Assembly: GCF_018500155.2 (NCBI RefSeq)
Contig: NZ_JAHBAK020000028.1
Span: 1-64,000 of the forward strand
DNA from: Polynucleobacter sp.
GTDB lineage: Bacteria > Pseudomonadota > Gammaproteobacteria > Burkholderiales > Burkholderiaceae
Direction of reading: 5' to 3'
DNA: 64,000 nucleotides
Shown here: positions 61,018 to 62,234 of the stretch, piece after piece
Layout: the number at the start of each line of letters is the position of its first letter
How positions within the stretch are numbered: position 1 is the stretch's first letter
Translations under genes and position numbers: made by a program
The notes under the pieces: generated by a model
Seen by the model: the letters and a program-made list of their open reading frames with translations, nothing else
Database searches by the model: none
Told to the model about the DNA's origin: nothing

Positions 61018-61290
61018 ATGGCAAGAATGATTCAATGCATCAAACTCAACAAAGAAGCAGAGGGATTAGATTTTGCCCCGCTTCCTGGTGAGCTTGGCAA
61101 AAAAATCTGGAATCAAGTATCGAAAGAGGCGTGGGCAGGCTGGTTAAAGCAACAAACCATGCTGATTAATGAAAATCGCCTCAATATGGCCGATCCCCGC
61201 GCTCGCCAATACCTTTTAAAGCAAGTTGAAAAATACTTTTTCGAGGGTGGTGCCGATACAGCACAGGGATACGTACCCCCAGCGGAATAA
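61018..61290 (+). CDS. yggX: Fe(2+)-trafficking / oxidative damage protection protein YggX
   Basis: ORF 90 aa; [31 protein letters not shown]...[25 protein letters not shown]. Confidence 0.95.
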
Positions 61291-61294
61291 TCCA

Positions 61295-61316
61295 TTTAGG
61301 GTATTGACACCCTAAA
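61295..61316. promoter_or_regulatory. Perfect 8-bp inverted repeat TTTAGGGT-ATTGAC-ACCCTAAA overlapping the -35 of the RNA candidate
   Basis: Read directly; begins 5 bp after the yggX stop. Confidence 0.7.
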
Positions 61317-61332
61317 AACTCAGGCATAGGAT
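61304..61332 (+). promoter_or_regulatory. Sigma70-type promoter TTGACA-N17-TAGGAT
   Basis: -35 at 61304..61309, -10 at 61327..61332; predicted start near 61337..61339. Confidence 0.75.
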
Positions 61333-61336
61333 GTAA

Positions 61337-61496
61337 GCGTGGTGAGGCAGTCATCGTGCTCCGCCACATTGGCGAAAGCCATTACCCAATAGGCGCATCT
61401 CTGTGCCTATAGGCTAAGGAACGATACATCTTCCGAGTGCCTGCGCCATGCATATCATGGCAAATAACCCGATGGGCATACCCCGTCGGGTTTTTT
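61337..61496 (+). ncRNA. Structured small RNA candidate (~160 nt) between yggX and rpiA, family unassigned
   Basis: Own promoter; 13-bp closing stem GCGUGGUGAGGCA/UGCCU(G)CGCCAUGC; hairpins UGGC-GAAA-GCCA and AUAGGCGCA-UCUC-UGUGCCUAU; perfect 11-bp terminator plus U6; no plausible coding ORF. Confidence 0.75.
61466..61496 (+). terminator. Intrinsic terminator AACCCGATGGG-CATAC-CCCGTCGGGTT-TTTT
   Basis: 11-bp stem with one GU pair; 3' arm runs into a T tract. Confidence 0.92.
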
Positions 61497-61520
61497 ATTA
61501 TCGATTCTGATGTTTACTGA

Positions 61521-62234
61521 TTATGAAAAAGTCAGTCGACTCACGCCGGTTGCATTACTTACCAGCAAAACATCGGCCTTTTCTTTCGCAAATAAGCCCA
61601 CAGTGATGACGCCTGCAATTTGATTAATCTGTGACTCCAGCTTGACTGGATCAGTTATGGATAGTCCGGCAATATCCAAAATCCATCCGCCATTGTCAGT
61701 CACAAACGGTTCACTAGGAGTTTGATTCAAATCCGCACGAGTACTTTTAGCTAGGCGCAAAGTCACTTTTCCACCTAATCTCTCTAGCTCTTTGGTGACT
61801 ACACCTTTTGCTAACGGAATAATTTCTACTGGCAGCGCAAAGTTCCCCAAAACTGCCACTTGCTTAGAGGAATCGCAAATACAGATAAATTGTTTAGCCA
61901 TAGAAGCGATAATTTTTTCGCGGGTCAGCGCTCCACCACCTCCTTTAATCATATTGCCGGCAGGGTCTATCTCATCTGCCCCATCAACATAAGCCGGAAG
62001 ACTCTGCACAAGATTTGGGTCCAGCACTTTAAAGCCATGCTTTAATAAACGTTCTGTTGTGGCATTCGAGCTAGACACGGTACCAACAAAATGATCTTTG
62101 TGGGGCGCTAAAGCATCAATAAAGCAATTTGCTGTAGAGCCGGTTCCAATACCCAAAATTTGTCCGGCAGGAAGTTTTAAAACTTCATCTTTTGCAGCCT
62201 CTCCCACCATTTGCTTCAGTTGATCCTGATTCAT
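61521..62234 (-). CDS. rpiA: Ribose-5-phosphate isomerase A
   Basis: ORF 237 aa; GIGTGSTANCFIDAL, VDGADEIDPAGNMIKGGGGALTREKI. Confidence 0.96.
   Translation of the reverse strand: MNQDQLKQMVGEAAKDEVLKLPAGQILGIGTGSTANCFIDALAPHKDHFVGTVSSSNATTERLLKHGFKVLDPNLVQSLPAYVDGADEIDPAGNMIKGGGGALTREKIIASMAKQFICICDSSKQVAVLGNFALPVEIIPLAKGVVTKELERLGGKVTLRLAKSTRADLNQTPSEPFVTDNGGWILDIAGLSITDPVKLESQINQIAGVITVGLFAKEKADVLLVSNATGVSRLTFS

Follow-up and report, generated by a model that had tools for sequence, protein, structure and literature searches.

The closest described relative of the RNA analyzed here is HRC-28-1, an orphan motif from a 2021 survey of 26 genomes (RNA Biol 18:2417, PMC8632094). That report gives 33 examples, mostly from Polynucleobacter, with a gene for an oxidative damage protection protein (PRK05408) upstream and rpiA downstream in the opposite orientation. 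According to the same text (PMC8632094), the motif has six stems, the last of which is an intrinsic terminator, and the authors offered it as a possible 3′-UTR element. Our literature search found HRC-28-1 named in no further paper. Small RNAs of mRNA 3′ ends provide a second parallel, and some of them carry an internal promoter of their own. The RNA described here likewise has a promoter just past a coding gene and a terminator in common with the mRNA of that gene; in contrast to them, however, it also occurs at loci without a co-directional upstream gene. On sequence comparison, it further resembles Hfq-dependent trans-acting small RNAs in having its own promoter and an intrinsic terminator, in a genome that encodes Hfq.

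The RNA lies in the window, the whole 64-kb stretch of DNA that we analyzed, which comes from a Polynucleobacter genome (Burkholderiaceae; 1.67 Mb in 78 contigs). A gap of 230 bases separates yggX from rpiA, and the structured RNA sits inside it. The features of the locus are as follows.

61018 to 61290, plus strand: yggX (PF04362 Iron_traffic, 143 bits), upstream of the RNA and at the end of argA-yggX.
61304 to 61332, plus strand: sigma-70-like promoter TTGACA-N17-TAGGAT, with TTGACA at 61304-61309, TAGGAT at 61327-61332, and a 17-nt spacer.
61339 to 61367, plus strand: hairpin P1, with arms 61339-61349 and 61357-61367 (11 positions, one A-C mismatch in the window) and a G-N5-G loop in which both G are invariant.
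61370 to 61381, plus strand: hairpin P2, UGGC-GAAA-GCCA, with a GNRA-type tetraloop in most homologues.
61389 to 61410, plus strand: hairpin P3, 9 bp, with a UCUC loop that is mostly UCUA or UCUG in relatives.
61411 to 61442, plus strand: hairpin P4, with an AGGC..GCCU outer helix, an internal loop, GGAA/UUCC, and a near-invariant C and C flanking the loop.
61445 to 61461, plus strand: hairpin P5, GCCAUG-CAUAU-CAUGGC, constitutive in homologues.
61466 to 61497, plus strand: intrinsic terminator with a U-tract, shared with the yggX mRNA and kept alone where the RNA is deleted.
61521 to 62234, minus strand: rpiA (PF06026), convergent and downstream of the RNA.

The structured RNA is real, and it is already published as HRC-28-1. 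It agrees with the description of that motif in its occurrence in Polynucleobacter, yggX upstream, convergent rpiA, six stems, and a terminal terminator. The basis of this identification is the genus, both neighbors with their orientation, and the stem count, so that the two are matched by description and not base by base; PRK05408 is presumably YggX, in line with the wording of the HRC-28-1 paper. As compared to the motif as presented in the survey (33 examples, possible 3′-UTR element), the RNA here is found in about 128 genomes, with a conserved promoter of its own, copies at other loci, and losses. Thus, what is new is the autonomy, the multiple loci, the natural losses, and a corrected fold. 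The initial annotation had been unable to match the RNA by eye to tmRNA, RNase P RNA, or 4.5S RNA and had proposed a search of Rfam. At the gathering cut-off, Rfam 15 gave no match in the 64 kb, and relaxed thresholds assigned the RNA to no family either; the RNA is therefore unmatched as far as Rfam is concerned but not in the literature. The anti-hemB RNA of Burkholderia (RF02837) gave a weak match (20 bits, where the cut-off is 49.5) that spans the terminator and a single hairpin but not P1 to P4; this match likely reflects a generic hairpin plus terminator.

We evaluated the fold on a MAFFT alignment of 43 diverse homologues, with shuffled and slid alignments as controls. The RNA region folds with an energy of -72.4 kcal/mol, as compared to -47.9 +/- 3.9 kcal/mol for shuffles (z -6.3). 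P1 to P5 together with the terminator had 93.4% of cells paired, and the compensatory changes that the initial annotation had suggested looking for were found in 33 of the 52 pairs; none of 500 shuffles scored as high, and the slid controls came nowhere near. For P1 (61339-61349/61357-61367), 90% of cells were paired and 9 of 11 pairs compensated, and RNAalifold recovered the identical six-stem fold unaided. A wider set including the copies at divergent loci reached 94.0% paired cells and 46/52 compensated pairs, in an alignment that was fitted to the model and thus leans toward it. In other clades, the internal loop of P4 is replaced by a continuous helix. We saw no conserved ORF within the RNA, the longest per copy being 9-42 amino acids. 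The primary elements reported in the initial annotation, namely the promoter, P2, P3, the hairpin now called P5, and the terminator (given there as 61466-61496), were all present at the positions it assigned, with the fold conserved in the 43 homologues and the promoter spacing conserved as well.

The promoter motif TTGACA-N17-TAGGAT is the sole match with at most one mismatch in the 64 kb, where 0.29 would be expected by chance. Among 96 distinct profile-aligned sequences, TTGAC opens every copy displayed, and an A/T-rich tract lies upstream of the -35 element in homologues. In all 105 copies that could be scored with a pattern of promoter plus P1, the spacer measured 16-17 nt and exactly 6 nt separated the -10 element from P1; this pattern itself demands TTGAC and TA..AT, so that the letters are no evidence and only the spacing and the flanking context are informative. 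The distance from the yggX stop to the -35 element, in contrast, varied between 13 and 81 nt in the 78 copies with a readable yggX stop. Because its distance to the -10 element is fixed, P1 begins where transcription should begin, which would put the transcription start on 61339, where P1 opens, or on an adjacent base. The -10 region (61324-61332 in the window, and its counterpart in homologues) is conserved as GCATAGGAT, in which TAGGAT differs from TATAAT at two positions. Conservation of a -10 element that departs from TATAAT perhaps indicates a tuned or regulated promoter.

We surveyed the distribution of the RNA by blastn and by two covariance models, one (R1) built from the 43 diverse copies and the other (R2) with divergent copies added. 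With blastn, 117 of the 186 Polynucleobacter genomes proved to carry the RNA, and a sample of 150 family genomes gave hits in no other genus; the covariance models raised the carriers to about 128 of these 186 Polynucleobacter genomes. Across 399 family and 399 order genomes, they returned nothing credible beyond the genus, the matches reaching at most about 30 bits and some covering the terminator only. An origin from phages or plasmids was considered and rejected, as collections of both gave no blastn match.

In 14 genomes, divergent copies occur elsewhere than between yggX and rpiA, with two copies each in G196 and G270. In eight of these cases (L210, L211, L213, L214, L217-L220), the copy has a PIN-domain gene (PF13470) on one side and, on the other, a convergent polyketide-cyclase-like gene; the alternative sites are after a hemW-like gene, at a TctC-type receptor gene, at a ChrR-cupin gene, beside a LysR gene, and at one further locus. 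At three loci (L207, L208, and L209), the RNA is preceded by a divergently oriented gene, which rules out an mRNA from upstream as its source there. The RNA was absent from the yggX locus in all 11 of these 14 genomes in which that locus was readable. Moreover, in G227 (L229) and G296 (L240), yggX is directly followed by the terminator, while the promoter and P1 to P4 are gone; G227 also keeps the 3′ arm of P5. Judging from the copies at other loci and these losses, the RNA is a dispensable element with no fixed link to yggX.

These observations make it quite probable that HRC-28-1 is an autonomous Polynucleobacter gene for a small regulatory RNA; this confidence applies to the autonomy of the RNA and is far lower for the way in which it acts. 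RNA polymerase would use the conserved sigma-70-like promoter that closely follows yggX and would start on the first base of P1 or on a neighboring one. The predicted product is an RNA of 156-169 nt (roughly 160) with five local hairpins, closed by the terminator that also serves yggX. What sequence comparison provides is the promoter architecture, the six-stem fold, the spread through the genus, the copies at other loci, and the natural losses; that the RNA is transcribed and acts in trans is what we infer. For Polynucleobacter asymbioticus, rRNA-depleted RNA-seq data exist (PMC6629928), although their TruSeq v2 library may have missed RNAs as short as this one. The initial annotation had likewise proposed a stand-alone RNA and not a leader riboswitch, and both views are supported, the former by the homologues, the fixed spacing between promoter and P1, and the copies at unrelated loci, and the latter by the convergent orientation of rpiA.

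Hfq-assisted regulation of mRNAs is the most likely mode of action, with roughly an even chance of being correct, because Hfq is encoded in the genome (PF17209, 104 bits), ProQ had no match in the genome, and a terminator carrying a U-tract forms the 3′ end of the RNA. Ranked next is the tentative idea that the RNA binds or sequesters a protein in the way of 6S or CsrB, its small invariant loop motifs presenting a surface for one protein; this would compete with Hfq-assisted pairing as a mode, not with the autonomy of the RNA. It agrees with the nature of the conserved unpaired bases, which are isolated loop positions (G..G in P1, U in P3, C..C in P4) next to the GNRA-type loop of P2. The remainder of the P1 loop varies freely, and we saw no long conserved unpaired seed, the invariant loop bases being single positions only. 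However, the position of GGA in the stem of P4, outside the loops, is evidence against CsrA titration, and the dispensability of the RNA in some genomes also speaks against such a role. A more far-reaching reading, which we consider rather unlikely, is that of a genus-wide RNA gene family at differing loci per lineage with a mode unlike that of seed-pairing small RNAs, for example a protein-binding chain of hairpins.

Autonomy of the RNA has to be weighed against a 3′-UTR element of the yggX mRNA, whose hairpins would exist solely as part of the argA-yggX transcript, protecting or regulating it. The survey puts this forward (PMC8632094), and in most genomes the RNA indeed follows yggX immediately in the same orientation, the two using one terminator and having no other between them. 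Nevertheless, we find it improbable, since the conserved promoter keeps a constant distance from P1 and a variable one from yggX, copies exist at other loci, three of them with a divergent upstream gene, and yggX is retained without the RNA in G227 and G296. Together, these results favor an autonomous, dispensable RNA over the 3′-UTR reading. Because yggX and the RNA have no terminator between them at the main locus, read-through or processed 3′-UTR forms of yggX likely exist there too.

The initial annotation had also described a 13-bp closing stem (61337-61349/61438-61451), with inner AUCGU/ACGAU and UCC/GGA helices, and had proposed that this stem and the GCCAUG-CAUAU-CAUGGC hairpin exclude each other, giving a switching 3′ end. 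The complementarity of the closing stem exists, and the stem is part of the minimum free energy fold of the window's copy; the fold with P1 forced is within 0.3 kcal/mol of it (-72.1 vs -72.4 kcal/mol). An RNA switch between the closing stem on the one side and P1 with P5 on the other is nonetheless very improbable. In the 43 homologues, the closing stem had 74% of cells paired as compared to 72% in shuffles, and the inner helices, with 67% and 65%, were not conserved either. In single-sequence folding, the pair probability exceeded 0.5 for P1 in 41 of 43 copies and for the closing stem in one of 43, the window's own, the mean for this stem being 0.02; P1 and P5 co-occurred in nearly all homologues. 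Thus, the closing stem is particular to the window's copy, the hairpin stands as the constitutive P5 and not as an alternative to that stem, and the switching idea falls. A divergent 6S RNA (RF00013), which the initial annotation had left open and which is likewise small, structured, and autonomous, with a roughly comparable size, is practically negligible as an explanation, since the RNA is a chain of hairpins with a different architecture, its locus gave no 6S match even at an E value of 10, and the true 6S RNA of this genome lies on another contig (G000:C5:23996-24214, 63.8 bits, above the cut-off).

With these results, an orphan motif without an Rfam entry is now identified, and its published 3′-UTR reading is probably incomplete. 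An RNA gene carried by the majority of a widespread genus of freshwater bacteria, occupying several loci and naturally lost from some strains, is a tractable starting point for studying RNA regulation in plankton bacteria with small genomes; without a function, the RNA remains of specialist interest.

Individual copies deviate from the common form. In L210, L211, L213, L214, and L217-L220, P2 is an extended CUGGUA-GNAA-UACCAG hairpin, whereas one copy (L224, G288) entirely lacks P2, and in another (L225, G094) the terminator is missing its 3′ arm. A weak match of 48-50 bits beside a groEL-like gene (L221:2586-2778, G201) has a promoter-like start, a P3-like AUCUGU loop, and a terminator, without P2, and is possibly a remote relative or a chance match. 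A further remote relative (L255, G281:C59:8751-8959) was found by R2 only, with 70.6 bits, and has a GUAA-capped P2 and a terminator together with a poor -35 element.
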